Assembly: GCF_015840915.1 (NCBI RefSeq)
Contig: NZ_CP060398.1
Span: 2,046,001 to 2,110,000 of the forward strand
DNA from: Synechococcus sp. CBW1002
GTDB lineage: Bacteria; Cyanobacteriota; Cyanobacteriia; PCC-6307; Cyanobiaceae
Direction of reading: 5' to 3'
DNA length: 64,000 nucleotides
A model generated the notes under the pieces. It was not told the DNA's origin and did no database searches. It was given only the letters and a program-made list of their open reading frames with translations. Of the stretch, positions 2,708-10,389 are shown piece after piece (position 1 is the stretch's first letter; each line of letters begins with the position of its first letter). The translations under genes were made by a program, and so were the position numbers.

Positions 2708-3264
2708 GCTCCAGGCCCCTCCACCAGCGCCTGCACCATCACCAGGGCATCGACATAGCCCCGTTGCCGGTGGCGAAACGCCCCAGGCAGAGTGCCGACG
2801 ACCTGAAAGCCGTTGCGCTGCCAGCAGCGGATGCCGGCCGTGTTGGTGCTCACCACCAGGTTGAACTGCATCAGCCGAAACCCCAGTCGCCGCGCCGCCT
2901 GCAGGGAGTGCTGGCAGAGCCTGCTGCCGATTCCCTGGCGCCTGCAGTGGTCGGCCACTACGTAGCCCGCATTGGCGACGTGGGCGCCGAGGGCGAGGGA
3001 GTTGGGCTTCAGGTAGTAGGTGCCCACCAGCGCACCCGCGGCATCCACGGCCACCATCACCGCCTGGCTCTGCTCCACCCACGCCACTTGAGCTTCCGCC
3101 TCGGTGATGGCCGGGTCGTGAGGGAAGGTTTCACCGGCGCGGAACACCGGCTCCAGCAGCGCCCACACCGCCGGCCAGTCGGCGGCTTCATAGGGGCGGA
3201 TCTGCAGGGGGGTGGTGTGCGTGGCCAGGGACAAGCAGCGGCCGGAGTCGATTGTCTCGTTCAA
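2704..3264 (-). CDS. GNAT family N-acetyltransferase
   Basis: 186 residues. After a short N-terminal tail the GNAT fold runs from residue about 22 (IRPYEAADWPAVWALL) to 178. The acetyl-CoA pyrophosphate loop is visible as CRRQGIGSRL (Q/RxxGxG/A), preceded by the strand VANAGYVVAD. The C-terminal AGIRCWQRNGFQVVGTLPGAF is the usual GNAT ending (YxKxGF type). Substrate is unknown; the closest general pattern is the phosphinothricin/L-amino-acid acetyltransferase-like branch. It overlaps the downstream PPC gene by 4 bases. Confidence 0.88.
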   Translation of the reverse strand: MNETIDSGRCLSLATHTTPLQIRPYEAADWPAVWALLEPVFRAGETFPHDPAITEAEAQVAWVEQSQAVMVAVDAAGALVGTYYLKPNSLALGAHVANAGYVVADHCRRQGIGSRLCQHSLQAARRLGFRLMQFNLVVSTNTAGIRCWQRNGFQVVGTLPGAFRHRQRGYVDALVMVQALVEGPGA

Positions 3265-3314
3265 CGGCCCTCAGGGGCCATACACCGCAGGCCCCCTGTG
3301 CTGGAAACCGTCGC

Positions 3315-3680
3315 TCAATCCTCTTCTGCAGCGCCAAGGGGGATGAGTTTGATCTGCTTGCGGCCCAGCTTGATCTCGAACTCATCGCCGGGTTCCAAGC
3401 CCAGCTGAGCGGTGTAGGCCTTGCCGACCAGCAGATTGCCGTTGAACTGAACCTTGGCCACATAACTCAGGCTGCGGCCTGCCTTACCACGTCCGCCACC
3501 CGCTCCGGTGCCCAGGCTCATGCCCTTGGCCTCCAGCAGCGCCTCATAGAAGGCCGTGAAGTTCAGGCGCTCCGTGCCGTCCTTCTTGGTGCTCACATAG
3601 CCGCAACCCCGTACCAGATCAGACTTGGAGGCATCGCCCAGCTCCTTGACTTTCGCCAGAAGATCAGAACCGGTCAGCAT
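3315..3680 (-). CDS. Cyanobacterial AbrB-family transcriptional regulator (cyAbrB)
   Basis: 121 residues. The N-terminal half (residues 1-60, LTGSDLLAKVKELGDASKSDLVRG, then FYEALLEAKG) is the cyanobacteria-specific part. The AbrB-like DNA-binding fold is C-terminal (VQFNGNLLVGKAYTAQLGLEPGDEFEIKLG), with a flexible Gly-rich linker between. This inverted arrangement is diagnostic of cyAbrB proteins, nucleoid-associated regulators of carbon and nitrogen metabolism genes. It sits downstream of recD2 in the same direction, 54 bases after its stop. The two cyAbrB paralogue types were not distinguished. Confidence 0.9.
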   Translation of the reverse strand: MLTGSDLLAKVKELGDASKSDLVRGCGYVSTKKDGTERLNFTAFYEALLEAKGMSLGTGAGGGRGKAGRSLSYVAKVQFNGNLLVGKAYTAQLGLEPGDEFEIKLGRKQIKLIPLGAAEED

Positions 3681-3734
3681 GATGCGGGAGTTGGGTGGAT
3701 CGACAGCCTCTTTTTGCCAGGCCTGCAGGCGTTG

Positions 3735-6071
3735 TCAACTGCCGTGGTTGTGACCCATGTCCGCTGAAAGCCGCTCCGGAGTGAGCCACTCCGCCAGCTT
3801 GGTGTAGCGCTTCCGCCCCAGGTGGTTCTTCACGGCCATGGCCAGGGCCTTCTTCTGGCCCACCAGCACCACCAGCTGCTTGCCGCGGGTGAGCCCCGTG
3901 TACACAAGGTTCCGCTGCAGCATCGCGTAGTGCTGGGTGAGCAGCGGAATCACCACCGCTGGGTACTCGCTGCCTTGGCTCTTGTGGATCGTGCAGGCGT
4001 AGGCCGGCACCAGGGTGTCGAGCTCTCCCCAGCCATAGATCACGGCCCGGCTGCCGGCGGCGCCGGCCTCGCTGGTTGGGAACAGCACGCACAATTCGCT
4101 GTTGTCTGAGTCGATCGCATCGATGGTGCCCACATCGCCGTTGAACACCTCCTTCTCGTAGTCGTTGGCGATCTGCATCACCTTGTCGCCCGGCGCGAAC
4201 CGCCAGCCAAAGCGCTCCACGTGCTCGGGCGGATCTGGGTTGAGCAGCTTCTGCAGCTCGATGTTCAGCGAGCGCGAGCCGCAGCCGCCGCGCGCCATCG
4301 GGCAGAGCACCTGCACCTGGGCGATCGGATCGAGGCCAAAGCGAGCCGGGATGCGCTCGCCCACCACTTTCAAGATCAGGGCCACCGCCTGCTCAGGCGT
4401 CTCGGCCGGCAGGAAGTAGAAGTCGCTGCTTACGCCCTCGGCCGGGGCCCGCAGATCGGGGATGGTGCCGCCGTTGATGGCGTGGGCAGTGGTGATGATC
4501 CGGCTGGATGCCGCCTGGCGAAACACCTCGGTGAGCCGCGTCACCGGCAGCGCACCGCTGTTGATCGCATCGGCCAGCACCTGCCCTGGACCCACCGACG
4601 GCAGCTGGTCCACATCGCCCACCAGCAGCAGCGCCGCCTCCGGCGGGATCGCCGCCAGCAGCGAGGCCATCAGCGGTACATCCACCATCGATGTCTCGTC
4701 CACCACCAGCAGGTCGCACTCCAGCGGCAACTCGGCGCCACGCCGGAAGCCGTAGCTGGCCGGATCGAACTCCAGCAACCGATGGATCGTTTTCGCCTCC
4801 AGGCCGGTGGCCTCAGCCATGCGTTTGGCGGCGCGGCCGGTGGGGGCGCAGAGCTGGATGCGCAGCTTCTTGGCCGCCAGGATCTGCAGGATGGCGTTGA
4901 TCAGGGTGGTCTTGCCCACCCCTGGCCCGCCGGTAATCACCAACACCTTGCTGGCCAGGGCCTGCTCCACCGCTTCCTGCTGGCTGGCGGCCAGCTGCAG
5001 GCCAAGCCGCTGCTCCACCCAGCCGATTGCCTTGGCCGAGTCGATCACGCCCCAGGGCGGAGCCCCCTGCGCCAGCTCCTGAAGCGATTCGGCGATCTGG
5101 CGCTCGGCCTTGTGCAGGTGGGCCAGGAAGATCGCCGGCTCGTCCGCCAGGCTGTCCGCCACCACGGCACCTTTTGCGAGCTCGAGATCCAGGGCTGATT
5201 GGATCTGTTCCGGCTCCAGCGGCTCGCGATTGCTGGAGCCGGTTTCATCGGGGCGGTCCACCGCCAGCAGCTCACCCGCCAGCTTGAGCAGCTCGGCGGT
5301 GGGCAGGCCGCAGTGGCCATCACCGCTGGCCTCCAGCAGGGCGTAGTTGATCCCCGCCCGCAGCCGGATCGTGGCGGTGGGTTCGATGCCGAGGCGGGCG
5401 GCGATGGCATCGGCGGTGCGAAAGCCGATGCCGCGGATGTCGCGCGCCAGGCGATAGGGGTTCTCCGCCATCACCTGCACGGCGTCGTTCCCGTACGTCT
5501 TGAAGATCCGCACCGCCCGGGCGGTGCCGACGCCATGGCTGTGCAGGAAGACCATGATTTCGCGCACCACCTTCTGATCAGCCCAGGCCTGAGCAATCCG
5601 GCCGGCGCGCACCTTGCCGATGCCCGGCACCTCCCGCAGCCGCTCGGGGGCCTGTTCGATCACCTCGAACACCTCCGCCCCGAAGACCGCCACGAGCTTG
5701 CTGGCGTAGATCGGGCCGATGCCGCGGATCATCCCGGAGCCCAGGTACTTCTCGATCCCCTCGGCGGTGGTGGGCGGTGAGGAGCGCAGGAAGGCGGCCT
5801 TGAACTGCTGGCCGTGCTCCCGGTCATTCACCCAGGTGCCACTCACCGTGACCCACTCGCCAGCACTGATCTCGGCGGCATGGCCCACCACCGTCACCAG
5901 CTCGCGGTGACCGCGCGCCTTGATGCGCAGCACGCAGAAGCCGTTGCTGGGGTTGTGGAAGGTGACACGCTCGATCGAGCCGGCCAGCACCTCGGTGGGC
6001 TCGGCTGCGGTGTCCGCCATCCCGCGGGACCGGCCAGCGACCGGCTTGTTCATGCCTCCCCGCGGTGCCAT
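3735..6071 (-). CDS. recD2: RecD2-type SF1B DNA helicase (ExoV alpha-subunit-like)
   Basis: 778 residues if started at the most upstream ATG; ATGs at 6053 and 6020 are alternatives, and the conserved domain starts near residue 29. In order: an OB-like N-terminal domain (LAGSIERVTFHNPSNGFCVL), helix-hairpin-helix segments (GIGPIYASKLV, VPGIGKVRAGRI), Walker A ITGGPGVGKTTL near residue 380, Walker B VVDETSMVD near 453, and C-terminal helicase motifs CTIHKSQGSEYP (about 693) and YTGLTRGKQ. RecD2 proteins unwind DNA 5'-3' without RecBC and act in repair and replication-fork maintenance. Length is typical. Confidence 0.93.
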   Translation of the reverse strand: MAPRGGMNKPVAGRSRGMADTAAEPTEVLAGSIERVTFHNPSNGFCVLRIKARGHRELVTVVGHAAEISAGEWVTVSGTWVNDREHGQQFKAAFLRSSPPTTAEGIEKYLGSGMIRGIGPIYASKLVAVFGAEVFEVIEQAPERLREVPGIGKVRAGRIAQAWADQKVVREIMVFLHSHGVGTARAVRIFKTYGNDAVQVMAENPYRLARDIRGIGFRTADAIAARLGIEPTATIRLRAGINYALLEASGDGHCGLPTAELLKLAGELLAVDRPDETGSSNREPLEPEQIQSALDLELAKGAVVADSLADEPAIFLAHLHKAERQIAESLQELAQGAPPWGVIDSAKAIGWVEQRLGLQLAASQQEAVEQALASKVLVITGGPGVGKTTLINAILQILAAKKLRIQLCAPTGRAAKRMAEATGLEAKTIHRLLEFDPASYGFRRGAELPLECDLLVVDETSMVDVPLMASLLAAIPPEAALLLVGDVDQLPSVGPGQVLADAINSGALPVTRLTEVFRQAASSRIITTAHAINGGTIPDLRAPAEGVSSDFYFLPAETPEQAVALILKVVGERIPARFGLDPIAQVQVLCPMARGGCGSRSLNIELQKLLNPDPPEHVERFGWRFAPGDKVMQIANDYEKEVFNGDVGTIDAIDSDNSELCVLFPTSEAGAAGSRAVIYGWGELDTLVPAYACTIHKSQGSEYPAVVIPLLTQHYAMLQRNLVYTGLTRGKQLVVLVGQKKALAMAVKNHLGRKRYTKLAEWLTPERLSADMGHNHGS

Positions 6072-6145
6072 CGGGCCATGCTTACAGCCTCTTGCAACGT
6101 CCTCCTCGGCTGCTGACGTACTCCCGGCAACATGGGTGGAAGTCC

Positions 6146-6649
6146 ATGGCCGATGCGACCGGCATCGGCAGGGCCAGCACCGATGAGCGAAATCTGATGC
6201 TCGACGACGAATCGGAGTACGACAAACGTTGTCAACAGATCCGCCAGGAGAATGCAGCCCTTCTTGGCGAATTCAGTCATTGGCTCAAGAAGGCTGGCCT
6301 TGGCGCGGCAACGATCAGAAGCCATTGCACCAATCTGGACTTCTATTTGAATCACTTCCTGCTCTACGCAGATCTATTGACGCCTGCCGATGGAGTCAGC
6401 TGTGTTGGCGAGTTTCTTGGCGACTGGTTTATTCACAAGGCCATGTGGTCCAACAAAACCACGGTCAAGGCTAATGCCACCAGCCTGAAGAAGTTCTATG
6501 GCTTCATGGCCGAGCGAGGGCTGATCAAGCCTGAAGAGTTCACCTCGCTGAAACAGCAGATCAAGGATGAGCTGCCGGACTGGCTGGACGCTGTCAAGAG
6601 ATACAACAACCCGGATGCTGACCTCCTTGAGGATGGCTGGCCCATCTGA
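6146..6649 (+). CDS. Stand-alone tyrosine-recombinase core-binding (SAM-like) domain protein
   Basis: About 167 residues from the ATG at 6146, which has GGTGGA a few bases upstream; an ATG at 6197 is closer to the conserved start. The protein matches the N-terminal DNA-clamping domain of phage integrases (LLGEFSHWLKKAGLGAATIRSHCTNLDFYLNHFL, then FLGDWFIHKAMWSNKTTVKANATSLKKFYGFM). It ends without the catalytic domain, so no R-H-R-Y residues are present. Small proteins of this kind are widespread and often annotated simply as recombinase. It could bind DNA or modulate a recombinase; catalysis is excluded. Confidence 0.8.
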   Translation: MADATGIGRASTDERNLMLDDESEYDKRCQQIRQENAALLGEFSHWLKKAGLGAATIRSHCTNLDFYLNHFLLYADLLTPADGVSCVGEFLGDWFIHKAMWSNKTTVKANATSLKKFYGFMAERGLIKPEEFTSLKQQIKDELPDWLDAVKRYNNPDADLLEDGWPI

Positions 6650-6717
6650 AATGGAGGTCGCGCCGCAGCCGCAGATGTTGCCTGGCTGCGGCTGCGGGCT
6701 TGTCACAGCTGGTGAGG

Positions 6718-7740
6718 TCAGCCGGCCTGGTGACAAGCCTGGTGCTGGTCTGCCAAGCGCACCTCCCGGTGCGACACCAAAAACGCTTCGATCCAGTCGT
6801 GGTGTCGCCTCTGGTTGATCCGATCGGCGATGGTCACCGCCTCCTCGGGAATCTGGAATCGCTTGCGGAAGGCCCGGGTGAGGCTCTCCAGCTGGGGCCT
6901 GGGGAGAGCCCGCAGGCTGGTGTGGAGGTGCTGGATCGTGTCGGCATCGAGGGCCTGCTGGCCGGGATCAGCCGGGGCTGATGGCTGTTGTGTGGGGGCC
7001 GCGGCCTGGGTGCGGCCTTGGGCCGGGGATGTTCCGGCGGCAGTAGGAGCGCCAGCTGCCGGCCGGCTCACGGGAGGCCGCTGCCCGCCTGGCCGCTGAG
7101 CTCCATCACCCTGGCCTCCTGCGCTGCTGACCTGCCTCTGCGCCTTGTCGTACAAAGCGAGGCCAAACGGGTTGCCGAAGGTCATGAGCGCCCGCTTCAT
7201 CGCGTCGGTCTCGGCCTCCTTGAGGGCGGATTCATGGGCCTGGCCCAGATCCACGTCAATGCCGTGGCCAGCGCCGCTCCCCTCGCGGACCAGAGGCACC
7301 AGGCCTCCGGCGGTGACGGTGACGCGCACGCGGGCGGTGAAGGTGACACCCCAGCCAGGCTTCTGGTCCCGGCCAATCAACCGTTCGGCCTGGGCGACAC
7401 AGCGGAGGGCGATCGTCTGCCGCTGCCAGCCATCAAAGCCAAAGATGCGGTTCGCTTCCGCGATCACCTGCCAACCCTCCAGATAGCTCACACGGCTGCG
7501 GCCCTGCTCCCGCTGGCGGACGTTGGCTCGATCGAGGGGAGCGGAGAGTGCAGCGAGCTGTTCTGGGGAGAAGCCGGAGGGATGAGCTTGGGGAGCGGAG
7601 TCAGCTTCTGGTAGGGCCTCCTCGGCGCGGTCAGCAGAGCGGATCAGCTCCAGGGCCGATGGAGGCCTCTGGTTGGGTCGAGGAGGAGCAGGGCGGCTGG
7701 TGGTGCGGGCACCGTTGGCGGATGGAACGGCGACGGTCAT
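6718..7740 (-). CDS. Rad52/Rad22-family single-strand annealing protein
   Basis: 340 residues. Residues about 60-205 carry the Rad52/22 pattern: LSAPLDRANVRQREQG, SYLEGWQVIAEANRIFGFDGW, REGSGAGHG, then HESALKEAETDAMKRALMTFGNPFGLALYDK. This domain forms rings that anneal complementary single strands, and many phages encode it. The C-terminal third (about 210-285) is a Pro/Gln/Ala-rich linker followed by a short ordered tail, a position often used for SSB or partner binding. It is last of a leftward set SLOG - Gp157 - Rad52 and lies 82 bases after the Gp157 gene. Confidence 0.9.
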   Translation of the reverse strand: MTVAVPSANGARTTSRPAPPRPNQRPPSALELIRSADRAEEALPEADSAPQAHPSGFSPEQLAALSAPLDRANVRQREQGRSRVSYLEGWQVIAEANRIFGFDGWQRQTIALRCVAQAERLIGRDQKPGWGVTFTARVRVTVTAGGLVPLVREGSGAGHGIDVDLGQAHESALKEAETDAMKRALMTFGNPFGLALYDKAQRQVSSAGGQGDGAQRPGGQRPPVSRPAAGAPTAAGTSPAQGRTQAAAPTQQPSAPADPGQQALDADTIQHLHTSLRALPRPQLESLTRAFRKRFQIPEEAVTIADRINQRRHHDWIEAFLVSHREVRLADQHQACHQAG

Positions 7741-7804
7741 GGCGTTGGAAGCAATGGTGTGAGGAGGGGAGAGGGCCCCGGCTGCTCAGCCAGGACCCCA
7801 CCTG

Positions 7805-7825
7805 TGAGGGGGCTTTGCCCCCTCA
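7805..7825 (-). other. Intergenic hairpin between Gp157-like and Rad52-family genes
   Basis: TGAGGGGGC, loop TTT, GCCCCCTCA: a perfect 9-bp stem whose last three bases are the stop codon of the Gp157-like gene. No U-run follows on the leftward strand, so it may be an RNA stability or attenuation element rather than a full terminator. Confidence 0.4.
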
Positions 7826-8443
7826 GCAGATGCGCCAGGAGCGGCGGGAGAGGAGCTGGGCACCGGTGATCTGCTGGCCAGCTTTGAGGGCCTCCTTGAT
7901 GGCGGCCTTGTCCGGCTTGCTGGTGGTGGTGAAGCTCAACCAGGCGGGATCGAGGGCCTGCTCGTCGTCAATCACCACGGCAGAGGACTTGCGGGAGGTG
8001 AGCTCGTGATTCGGGAACGAGAAGCGGGTGGCTGCCGGCTGGAGCTGGGTGAGGACAAACACCAGCGACTCCTCCAGCGCGTCGGCCCGGCTGGCATCGG
8101 AGCGGGAGAGATCGGTGAGCCGCTTTGCCTGCTGCTGCCGGTAGGCGGCCTGGCCGCGGAGGTGCTCGATCACCCAGCAGGTGGCATCGGCCTTGGCGGC
8201 GAGAGCCTGCTTGTTGCCCTCTTCCGCAAGGAGGGCGGCCTCCAACTCAGCGAGGGCATGAGATCGGGCGTCGTCGTCATCGGTTTCGAGCTTTTCGGCC
8301 AGCTGGCCGATGGCGGTGGTGAGCTCCTGGGCCTCAATGCCCAGCTGCCAGAGCGAACCGGTGCGCTGCAGGGAGCAGGACGGCCCGGCGGCCTGGGGGA
8401 GAGATGGGGAGAGAGGAGCGGCGGGGGCAGTGAGAACAGCCAT
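7823..8443 (-). CDS. Siphovirus Gp157-family protein
   Basis: About 206 residues from the ATG at 8443; a slightly longer start at 8470 is possible. A long coiled-coil segment (residues about 45-130, rich in A/E/Q/L: TTAIGQLAEKLETDDDD, LAELEAALLAEEGNKQALAAKAD) precedes the family's C-terminal signature RFSFPNHELTSRKSSAVVIDDE, followed by LDPAWL and SWRI. Gp157-like proteins come from siphovirus recombination or replication modules and often sit beside single-strand annealing proteins, as here. Molecular function in the family is poorly defined. Confidence 0.85.
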   Translation of the reverse strand: MAVLTAPAAPLSPSLPQAAGPSCSLQRTGSLWQLGIEAQELTTAIGQLAEKLETDDDDARSHALAELEAALLAEEGNKQALAAKADATCWVIEHLRGQAAYRQQQAKRLTDLSRSDASRADALEESLVFVLTQLQPAATRFSFPNHELTSRKSSAVVIDDEQALDPAWLSFTTTSKPDKAAIKEALKAGQQITGAQLLSRRSWRIC

Positions 8444-8494
8444 GGGGATGTGAATGGGAACGAGGAACAAGAGGAACGGGGCGGCGGATGCCGC

Positions 8495-9016
8495 TCAGGC
8501 GGCGAGGGGCTCCGGTGAGAAGGGCGGCGGTACTTCCATCACCACCACCGGCACCGGCGCACGGGAGGAGCAGCGGCGGGCCTGCTGCACCAGCGAGGCC
8601 GTGCCTGCTCCGCCGGGGAAGGCGATCACCAGCACCGAGGCGCTGAACGCTGGGGAGGTGTGGGTCTGGGCCTCCACCAGGGCCTGTTCGAGCAGAAGGC
8701 GATTGCGGATGGGGCCCGCAGCGCGGCCATGGCGGCGCCAATCAGCGGCGAGCTCTTGGACCCGCCAGCCGAGCTGATGGGCGGCGCGGCCGATAGCGCG
8801 ATCAGCGCCACGGGCCCCGCCATGCAGCAGCAGATGGACAGGCCGGCCACCGCTGCGCTGGAGCAGGGCGGAGGCGATGCGCTCCTGGGGCCAGACGAGA
8901 TCACGGCCACCAGCGGCGACGATGACGACCGAGCGATGGGCCAACGCCGGCGGCGGCAACAGGCCAGGAAGAGACAATGCAGCGGCCTGGGCCACTGCAG
9001 CAGAGGACAAGCTCAT
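8495..9016 (-). CDS. YspA/cpYpsA-type SLOG family protein (DUF2493-like)
   Basis: 173 residues. The SLOG Rossmann-like core is visible: strand VVIVAAGGRD (residues 30-39), the loop LLLHGGARGADRAIGRAAHQLGW (62-84), then the C-terminal strand VLVIAFPGGAGTASLVQQARR, with the GGxGT phosphate-binding turn. SLOG proteins bind nucleotides or nucleotide-derived signals, and the YspA branch is common in phages and mobile elements. First gene of the leftward set; a LexA-like box lies about 95 bases upstream of its ATG. Confidence 0.82.
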   Translation of the reverse strand: MSLSSAAVAQAAALSLPGLLPPPALAHRSVVIVAAGGRDLVWPQERIASALLQRSGGRPVHLLLHGGARGADRAIGRAAHQLGWRVQELAADWRRHGRAAGPIRNRLLLEQALVEAQTHTSPAFSASVLVIAFPGGAGTASLVQQARRCSSRAPVPVVVMEVPPPFSPEPLAA

Positions 9017-9101
9017 GGGCTACAGAGCAAACGAACGGGGCAAGTTGTCCAAGGATTTCGTTGCCGCAGGCGATGGGCTCGTGGCCTTTGGCGCAGGTCT
9101 T

Positions 9102-9123
9102 ATTCTACCAGTACAAACGCACT
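9102..9123 (-). promoter_or_regulatory. LexA-like box overlapping a promoter for the SLOG-Gp157-Rad52 operon
   Basis: On the leftward strand, 9123-9110 reads AGTGCGTTTGTACT. This matches the cyanobacterial LexA box AGTAC-N4-GTACT at 9 of the 10 defined bases, with G replacing A at the fourth. It is followed two bases later by TAGAAT (9107-9102), a good -10 hexamer. The first codon of the SLOG gene is at 9016, leaving a leader of about 80 bases. No convincing -35 hexamer was found at standard spacing. SOS control is inferred from the match and from the repair-type genes downstream. Confidence 0.5.
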
Positions 9124-9478
9124 GAGAGGCGAGCAGAGTGCTTGCGGGGCAATGGATCTACGCAAAGCAAAGCCATGCGCTGATGGATCGGAAAGCTGAT
9201 AAGCAGACCCGCCAGATTCCGCACGGAATGCCCAGCTGACCGCGCAGCCGCGCGAGGAAGCCTGGGGCCTTCCTCCTCCCCATCAACGCGAGCGAAGGCC
9301 CGGCCACCGCAGTCGCGGGAGAGCGGCTCTGCCCACCACCCCCACACCGGCCCCGGAGCGGAGGGCGGCGGCGGCTGGCCGATGCACGCCACGGTGCAGC
9401 CGTGGCACGCTGAAGGACGGCCGTCGTCGCACCGAGAGGTGCGCTCAGCGAATCCGACCGGAGCCCTGCGGCGGTTGC
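9124..9478. other. Intergenic stretch with no supported gene
   Basis: About 355 bases between the putative SLOG operon promoter and the stop of the next leftward gene. The open frames here are short, rich in Arg/Pro and lack homologous-looking patterns. Nothing further was identified. Confidence 0.4.
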
Positions 9479-9865
9479 TCAGCCCCAGGGAACGTCCATG
9501 AACTCCACCAGCAGCACGCCCCGGTGGGTGCCATGGATCTTCACCAGGCCAGCTTTGGCAGCACGCTCCATCCCAGGACGCTCCTTGCGGACCTGCTCGG
9601 CGCTGGCCAGCACCCGCACCCAGCCGCCGGTCATGAAGTCTTCGCTGCCGGTCTCAAAGGCCTGCAGCCGCCGGTGCTGGTTGCTGCTGCGCTCGTAGTA
9701 CAGGCCCCCACCTGTGGGATCGCTCCCCTCGGCCCAGACCTGATCGACCATCAGCTTGCCGATCGCCAGGGGATCCCGCGCCGCTGCGTCAATGGCTTCA
9801 CCATCGAGCACCAGCGGGTTGCCCGGGTCGTCACGGTTGTCGGAAATGATCAGGCGATTGGACAC
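9479..9865 (-). CDS. Hypothetical accessory protein
   Basis: 128 residues, not recognised. The composition looks like a genuine folded protein, with alternating hydrophobic strands (RLIISDNRDD, PLVLDGEAID, GVLLVEFMDVPWG) and a central segment GGGLYYERSSNQHRRLQAFETG that resembles a conserved core. No signal peptide or membrane segment is visible. It runs in the same direction as the SLOG-Gp157-Rad52 set but 460 bases upstream. It lies between that set and the disrupted tRNA-Pro, so it is probably part of the same accessory island. Confidence 0.6.
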   Translation of the reverse strand: MSNRLIISDNRDDPGNPLVLDGEAIDAAARDPLAIGKLMVDQVWAEGSDPTGGGLYYERSSNQHRRLQAFETGSEDFMTGGWVRVLASAEQVRKERPGMERAAKAGLVKIHGTHRGVLLVEFMDVPWG

Positions 9866-9951
9866 AACCTCGGCCCTTGGCGGATCAGGACCTCAATCCT
9901 GGAGGCCTCACGGCAATCAGGCTTCAGTGGCCCATCCGGTCCGACCGAGCA

Positions 9952-10034
9952 CGGGAGAGAACCTCTCCCATCTGGAGCGGGAGAGATCACCCGGCGGGGA
10001 GCGGAGCGGGAATCTCTCCCCAAATCTCTCCCAT
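9952..10034. repeat. Cluster of GGGAGAGAT-type repeats in both orientations
   Basis: The motif occurs as CGGGAGAGA (9952-9960), CCTCTCCCA (9962-9970), CGGGAGAGATC (9979-9989), AATCTCTCCC (10011-10020) and AAATCTCTCCC (10022-10032). The second and third copies make a hairpin with an 11-base loop (GGGAGAG / CTCTCCC). The cluster lies between the start of the hypothetical gene at 9865 and the 3' half of tRNA-Pro. It could be an operator array for that gene, a transcript hairpin, or recombinase accessory sites. No role is proven. Confidence 0.5.
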
Positions 10035-10062
10035 CTCCCTTGGTCGATCGGTGAAAAGTCAG

Positions 10063-10092
10063 TCGGGGCGACAGGATTCGAACCTGCGACCT
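10063..10092 (-). pseudogene. tRNA-Pro(UGG), 3' half
   Basis: On the leftward strand this reads AGGTCGCAGGTTCGAATCCT, then GTCGCCCCGA: part of the variable loop, the T-arm with TTCGAAT, the 3' acceptor strand CGCCCCG and discriminator A. CCA is not encoded. There is no anticodon arm: bases further upstream belong to an IS end. The missing 5' half lies 3.5 kb away at 13620-13666. Joined at the shared CCT the two make a 74-nt tRNA with all arms paired. Confidence 0.9.
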
Positions 10093-10109: not shown

Positions 10110-10389
10110 CGAACCAGTACGCGCGTACGCCCTCGCGCCCGAAACACCCACGGCCAAGCCAGAGCGCCCTTGCCACTCTGGTCATGAGGACATCGGGCCA
10201 TGGCCGATGACATCTTTGGAGGCCTGACCCCGAAAGCAAACGTGGCCTGGGATTCGAATTGCGCTCCCTGCCCTGGCGACGGCTCGACTGACCAATGAGT
10301 TAGTCGGCCGATCCCGATTAGGAATTTGCTGATTTTAGTGCGCGAATCCTGCCTGATGCCCTCCCGATCACCTAGTGAGTCCTTAAGCC
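10110..10389 (+). ncRNA. Candidate bridge-RNA region in the IS110 left end
   Basis: 280 non-coding bases upstream of the IS110 transposase. IS110-group elements with a long left end express a structured bridge RNA from this position, whose loops pair with target and donor DNA. An 8-base match AGCAAACG occurs at the left junction (10104-10111) and again inside the region (10235-10242), a candidate guide segment. Structure was not computed, so the RNA itself is inferred from family knowledge and position. Confidence 0.35.

Follow-up and report, generated by a model that had tools for sequence, protein, structure and literature searches.

A predicted LexA-controlled SLOG-Gp157-Rad52 operon, probably a recombination module of tRNA-integrating temperate phages of freshwater picocyanobacteria

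What does an operon of phage-type recombination genes do in a cyanobacterial chromosome, and would the SOS response of the host govern it? The question is raised by a 64,000-nucleotide stretch of the genome of Synechococcus sp. CBW1002 (NZ_CP060398.1, positions 2,046,001 to 2,110,000; hereafter the window), where three leftward genes for SLOG, Gp157 and Rad52-type proteins share one upstream region carrying a sequence that resembles a LexA box. A sequence-only reading had proposed an SOS-controlled single-strand annealing operon, unusual for a chromosomal island, that could be a domesticated phage repair system or an anti-phage device. The operon and its upstream region comprise the following features, in window coordinates.

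9110-9123, minus strand: predicted LexA box AGTGCGTTTGTACT, recognized by pattern, matrix score and conservation
9102-9107, minus strand: -10 element TAGAAT, 2 bp after the box, 86-100% conserved per base in 37 distinct upstream regions
9059-9096, minus strand: conserved 5' leader (GCGCCAAAGGCC...), between the promoter and the SLOG start
8495-9016, minus strand: SLOG-domain protein (YAcAr), 173 aa, first gene of the operon; PF10686, 2.9e-9
7823-8443, minus strand: Gp157-family protein, 206 aa from ATG; PF05565, 9.8e-22
6718-7740, minus strand: Rad52-type annealase, 340 aa, last gene of the operon; PF04098, 1.6e-40

Taking together that (i) the host LexA keeps its functional residues, (ii) the box is shared with recA, (iii) the box leaves a conservation footprint upstream of the operon, (iv) the order of the trio is maintained, (v) tRNA T-arms occupy a consistent position beside it, and (vi) integrase and terminase genes are linked to it, the operon is best explained as, and probably is, an SOS-switched recombination module belonging to a family of tRNA-integrating temperate phages, and their derived islands, in freshwater picocyanobacteria.

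The three leftward genes lie where the sequence-only reading had placed them and score above the curated Pfam cut-offs: 139 bits against 20.3 for Rad52, 78.1 against 28.6 for Gp157 and 37.1 against 28.2 for SLOG. The Pfam and PHROG families uphold a recombination module of phage type; all 22 aligned members of the Gp157 family match phrog_253, 'Mu Gam-like end protection', and phage relatives of the SLOG protein carry the annotation DprA-like. The Gp157 reading frame extends to a TTG at 8470 (7823-8470), the ATG at 8443 being the likelier start since the alignment of relatives begins there. The SLOG motifs GGRDL, RGAD and GPIRNR are unchanged across 16 aligned members, and the structural model of the protein (pLDDT 83) gave weak Foldseek matches to SLOG folds of the LOG, YpsA and TRPM types (best E 4e-3, none below 1e-3). 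Compared with four near relatives, the window genes show dN/dS values of 0.13-0.28; the nearest of the four changes from gene to gene (L073 for SLOG, L302 for Rad52), a sign of mosaic exchange.

A single contig of 3,854,122 bases makes up the genome, and one lexA gene (PF01726, 2.2e-21) was identified in it. The product retains the residues of LexA self-cleavage: the Ala-Gly site, the serine of GDSM and the lysine of TLKHF. Upstream of recA lies the box AGTACGCCCGTACT, and a box of this type is found within one mismatch at the recA promoters of 18 out of 18 related genomes. The published picocyanobacterial boxes, in the part of the source available, are of the same type, two examples being CGTACGCCTGTACT (WH8102 recA) and GGTACAAATGTATT (CC9605 lexA) (PMC3091678). 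The box of the operon reads AGTACAAACGCACT on the plus strand and AGTGCGTTTGTACT in the operon direction. A LexA matrix was trained on sites of recA and lexA promoters alone (11 distinct), using all 18 recA sites and, since six of the 18 lexA promoters had no clear site, the other 12 lexA promoters; two of these 12 sites were second-ranked. On this matrix the window box reaches 14.73 bits, a score attained 0.025 times per 64 kb of shuffled sequence, and five of 150,115 positions of own-genome sequence score as high or higher: lexA and recA (both training sites), L062:9029, the window box and the box of a second operon copy. Exact matches to AGTRCN4GTACT number only four in the whole genome, at recA, at both operon copies and at 251917, against two for the reversed control. 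The bare pattern is weak evidence within the window, with 5 matches at up to two mismatches against 3.6 expected by chance. A looser search for RGTACN4GTWCY with at most one mismatch was uninformative genome-wide, giving 493 matches against 1719 for the reversed control. A palindrome next to a tRNA remnant, AGTACGCGCGTACG (10116-10129), was dropped as a LexA candidate because it recurs in the genome, for example at 349410, 370469 and 816178.

Conservation among relatives is the strongest evidence for the predicted box. In the footprint, for which 37 distinct upstream regions of 45 were taken, the half-site bases are 95-97% conserved (the fourth base 86%), the spacer 65-92% and the six bases preceding the box 35-65%. 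Among named loci, from a scan that kept the best 80 of 123, enough upstream sequence was present in 76 of 78; here the box has no mismatch in 1, one in 55, two in 14, three in 4 and four in 2, that is, at most one in 56 and at most two in 70. The site is clearly lost in L039 and L076. Members of a distant clade carry AGTACGCCCGTACT (L069 and L080), identical to the own recA box, AGTACGCCTGTACT (L081) and AGTACGCCTGTATT (L079). The 5' leader at 9059-9096 is strongly conserved in the main clade and different in the distant one, and gave no convincing RNA covariation. Of what the sequence-only reading had claimed for this region, the box 2 bp from TAGAAT is there and scores highly on a cyanobacterial LexA matrix; either of two findings was to speak against it, and the genome has a lexA gene with its catalytic residues while the box is kept upstream of orthologous operons. 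At the level of sequence, SOS control is supported by the LexA residues, by the recA-type box of the 18 genomes and by the persistence of the box over diverged operons.

The combination, called unusual by the sequence-only reading, is not confined to this island. The trio recurs, often several times per genome, beside tRNA sites and often with prophage genes. Of the 78 named loci, 62 have the order SLOG-Gp157-Rad52, 10 are cut by contig ends, 4 hold SLOG and Gp157 only and 2 SLOG alone; all three frames are open over the minimum lengths in 58 of the 62 full trios. In the distant-clade locus L080 the SLOG gene contains a stop, and dN/dS is 0.62 for Gp157 and 0.24 for Rad52. The loci come from Cyanobium (ten from Cyanobium sp. 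Cruz-8D1), freshwater Synechococcus, Vulcanococcus, a strain named Microcystis elabens and uncultured relatives. Rad52 relatives occur in at least 87 of 400 genomes of the family, few candidates having been scored per genome, and at up to 8 places in one genome. In a 292-genome sample of the phylum, whose draw took in only some of the carriers, four genomes have Rad52 relatives, all from the same family, and the trio was not found beyond it. A plasmid search returned three Streptomyces records, matching the Rad52 core only.

The position of these operons in their genomes points to tRNA genes, and in the window two further features lie upstream of the operon.

10063-10092, minus strand: 3' part of tRNA-Pro(TGG), an att-like remnant of 30 nt; the operon reads away from its 3' end
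9479-9865, minus strand: 128-aa open reading frame between the att remnant and the operon; no Pfam or PHROG match

Homology with the window copy typically ends near the end of rad52 and just beyond the 128-aa frame, relatives of which occur in 28 of 99 sequences (window included; these are the named and unnamed loci, possibly from the same genomes and hence not independent). In L065, L070 and L073 it extends to 10092, the 3' part of tRNA-Pro(TGG), and an intact tRNA-Pro adjoins the operon in L065, L074 and L076. Among 58 loci flanked on either side by 3.3 kb of sequence, duplicates removed, a tRNA T-arm was detected upstream in 39 (one of which, L069, looks like chance) and downstream in 2 (Fisher p 8e-14). 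Judged by eye on the anticodon loop, the tRNAs are those for Pro, Gly, Arg, Lys and others, and many fragments begin at the anticodon loop, in a manner that would resemble integrase crossovers.

Several of these sites are ends of recognizable elements. Related proteins of 403-450 aa adjoin the tRNA-Pro sites; two that were tested match the phrog_1 integrase (2e-13 and 1.5e-14), and PF00589 matches two of five, one over the cut-off. One element of genome G062 is bounded by tRNA-Pro (864966) and an att fragment (900438), with the operon and the integrase at opposite ends and both facing inward. Inside this element a gene (L089, 873532-874500) reads by eye as a phycobilisome linker. The element of G101 has terminase, portal and major head genes, and that of G098 terminase and portal. 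The second operon copy of CBW1002 itself terminates a 71-kb element that runs from tRNA-Ser (2445374-2445460) to 2516165; homologous elements in G062 and G180 share its edges, and the 15-bp repeat CACCCTCTCCGTTTC stands at both its ends. The element encodes an integrase, an AlpA-type excisionase, a Bro-N antirepressor, a helicase-like and a RusA-like protein, TerL and a major head protein, together with a helix-turn-helix (HTH) gene at 26.1 bits, slightly below the 27-bit cut-off; genes reading by eye as copper and other metal-resistance cargo precede the trio. An integrase, an att duplication and packaging or capsid genes are thus found together around this copy, and likewise in G101 and G098. 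Two stretches of the prophage (G000 2445420-2516165; L313-L316), one of 31,104 bp with 99.65% identity and one of 10.9 kb with 99.7%, match G062 (L317-L320), labelled as another genus; the longer one points to recent transfer. A 259-aa protein of the prophage early region (L313:9105-9884, minus strand) shares the C-terminal tail of Rad52, with 46% identity over 63 residues; this tail is possibly an interaction module that the two proteins have in common.

A further gene of these elements appears to answer to the same signal. A small protein of about 94 aa (CMTCHWFR...LTCQLHQGL; for example L316:11729-12013, minus strand), without a Pfam family, is present in 37 of the 99 operon loci; 34 of these have it on the strand of the SLOG gene, 1.6-4.6 kb downstream from where that gene starts. 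Of 31 hits aligned near their start, 30 are immediately preceded by a box of the recA type with at most one mismatch, and the gene is predicted to be a second SOS-controlled gene of the same elements. It is absent from the 64-kb window.

The link with phages was measured on complete genomes and on viral contigs. Of the 24 full-length SLOG copies in 12 complete genomes, 10 have a phrog_38 terminase no more than 70 kb away, where 1.4 are expected and none of 20,000 random placements did as well; the limit was chosen after the distances had been seen, distances of 76, 88 and 102 kb fall outside it, and two partial SLOG hits were excluded. IMG/VR yielded 209 Rad52 relatives; the 80 of them that were kept comprise 7 trios, 63 contigs with Rad52 only and 10 with Gp157 and Rad52 without SLOG (Gp157 downstream in nine, a partial match upstream in one). 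The box occurs within one mismatch in 6 of the 7 trio contigs and in one (L178) of the 73 others. All 7 trio contigs bear a phrog_38 terminase, which points to the life cycle of the element itself. Among deposited phages, Rad52 matches 23 records, Gp157 38 and SLOG 9; judged by organism counts (Rad52 and SLOG matches in full, 12 of 38 for Gp157), no record appears to hold all three.

We propose the following sequence of events. Gene order, the box and -10 element with their conservation, the place near the att site and the link to integrase and packaging genes are read directly from the DNA. LexA would occupy the box just upstream of the -10 element and repress the operon. DNA damage would activate RecA, LexA would cleave itself, and transcription would proceed inward from the attachment site. 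Gp157, as its family suggests, would shield DNA ends from host nucleases in the manner of Gam. Rad52, again going by its family, would anneal single strands, so that the excised or replicating element could circularise, be repaired and recombine with copies related to it. As in its DprA-type relatives, the ligand of the SLOG protein is probably single-stranded DNA or a nucleotide signal.

A number of observations weigh against the operon being a phage module under LexA. The 64 kb of the window show no relative of the integrases, TerL, portal and capsid proteins tested, the sole match being the tail of Rad52 itself. Fourteen of the 24 copies lie more than 70 kb from a phrog_38 terminase, the only terminase family searched. 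Six of the 76 named operons have three or four mismatches in the box, and the main-clade half-site AGTGC deviates from the AGTAC of recA. The Gp157 model (pLDDT 79.5) found no fold match in PDB with E <= 0.001. In the own prophage, the trio stands at the far end past the cargo, away from the integrase, HTH and helicase region, and for that reason may be a passenger. It is possible, if doubtful, that trio and box form a transplantable att-end cassette acquired by different tRNA-integrating elements (Pro, Gly, Arg, Ser and others), host damage then provoking annealing-driven recombination among the copies in one cell. Were this true, SOS would drive the exchange of cargo between islands, and LexA would be the common switch of the mobile gene pool of freshwater picocyanobacteria. 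That the box serves instead as operator for an element-encoded repressor with a LexA-like target is very improbable: the sub-threshold HTH gene of the prophage and the AGTGC of the main clade would suit such a repressor, whereas the distant-clade box is identical to that of the own recA, the score is high on a matrix built from recA and lexA promoters only, and the small companion gene bears recA-type boxes.

The sequence-only reading had offered two functions, repair and defence. A damage-induced trio that aids survival of the host after double-strand breaks by single-strand annealing, the elements and relics being kept for this purpose, would fit the intact orphan genes of the window, which are under purifying selection, the several copies per genome, the 14 copies away from the tested terminase and the control by the LexA of the host; we regard it as unlikely, as the trio is confined to mobile-element settings where tested and its distribution is patchy even within the family and not found beyond it in the phylum sample. 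Interference with incoming phages, damage or infection releasing LexA, is improbable. A link between Gp157 and phage resistance in Streptococcus is reported in the accessible part of PMC6157547, and the RecD2-like helicase beside the window copy resembles helicases of defence databases, but the helicase matches are generic to RecD, no PADLOC family matches any of the three trio proteins, and the trio viral contigs all bear a terminase themselves. Nothing in these data directly supports a domesticated repair or anti-phage role.

Under the preferred reading as a module of temperate phages, the window copy is best seen as the orphan of an old element, its operon still under selection or only recently stranded; none of the tested integrase, TerL, portal or capsid genes accompanies it in the 64 kb, and only the 30-nt tRNA-Pro remnant represents the attachment site.

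Phage recombination modules and LexA-controlled prophage genes are both familiar. In the Red-type module of lambda, Gam end protection and the Beta annealase are combined; here the annealase is of Rad52 type, Gp157 replaces Gam, a SLOG gene is added, the operon has no exonuclease and a LexA box precedes it. Host LexA directly controls prophage genes in phage 186 (tum), CTX phage and GIL01, whereas the set predicted to be controlled here is a recombination operon present in several copies per genome. Tycheposons are tRNA-associated integrative elements with cargo in picocyanobacteria; several trio elements differ from them in carrying terminase, portal and capsid genes. The picocyanobacterial LexA regulon has the same type of 14-bp box at recA and lexA of marine Synechococcus and Prochlorococcus; the accessible part of that study describes a search of core genes and makes no mention of phage genes, in contrast to the phage-element operon described here (Li et al. 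2010, PMC3091678). The cyanosiphovirus S-LBS1, a freshwater Synechococcus phage with an integrase, has a Gp157 that is 46% identical to that of the window; according to the sections available, its proposed att sites lie outside tRNA genes and it is not inducible in its host (PMC6157547). It is also absent from the 23 records with this Rad52 and the 9 with this SLOG. No paper treating Gp157 together with Rad52 was found in the open-access library searched, within which the operon seems to be undescribed.

In the text available, lysogeny is called rare in unicellular cyanobacteria, inducible prophages were not found in isolates of Synechococcus and Prochlorococcus, and mitomycin C induces phages in natural populations (PMC6157547); it also raises the expression of genomic-island genes in marine Synechococcus, according to the accessible part of a second source (PMC3744912). 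A multicopy LexA-boxed operon at the tRNA ends of prophages would offer a concrete and testable link between rare lysogeny, mitomycin C induction and island expression, and it gives the Gp157 and YAcAr SLOG families, both poorly understood, a defined setting in DNA recombination.

The surroundings of the window copy are shared in part with another genome, window positions 2840-10092 being syntenic with G101 at 84%. Within this block a RecD2-type helicase gene (3735-6071, minus strand) adjoins the operon, and a 194-aa reading frame (6065-6649, plus strand) gives a sub-threshold integrase SAM-like match (E 0.05). A PemK/MazF-like toxin gene (PF02452, 1.5e-10) lies at 1733-2113 on the plus strand.

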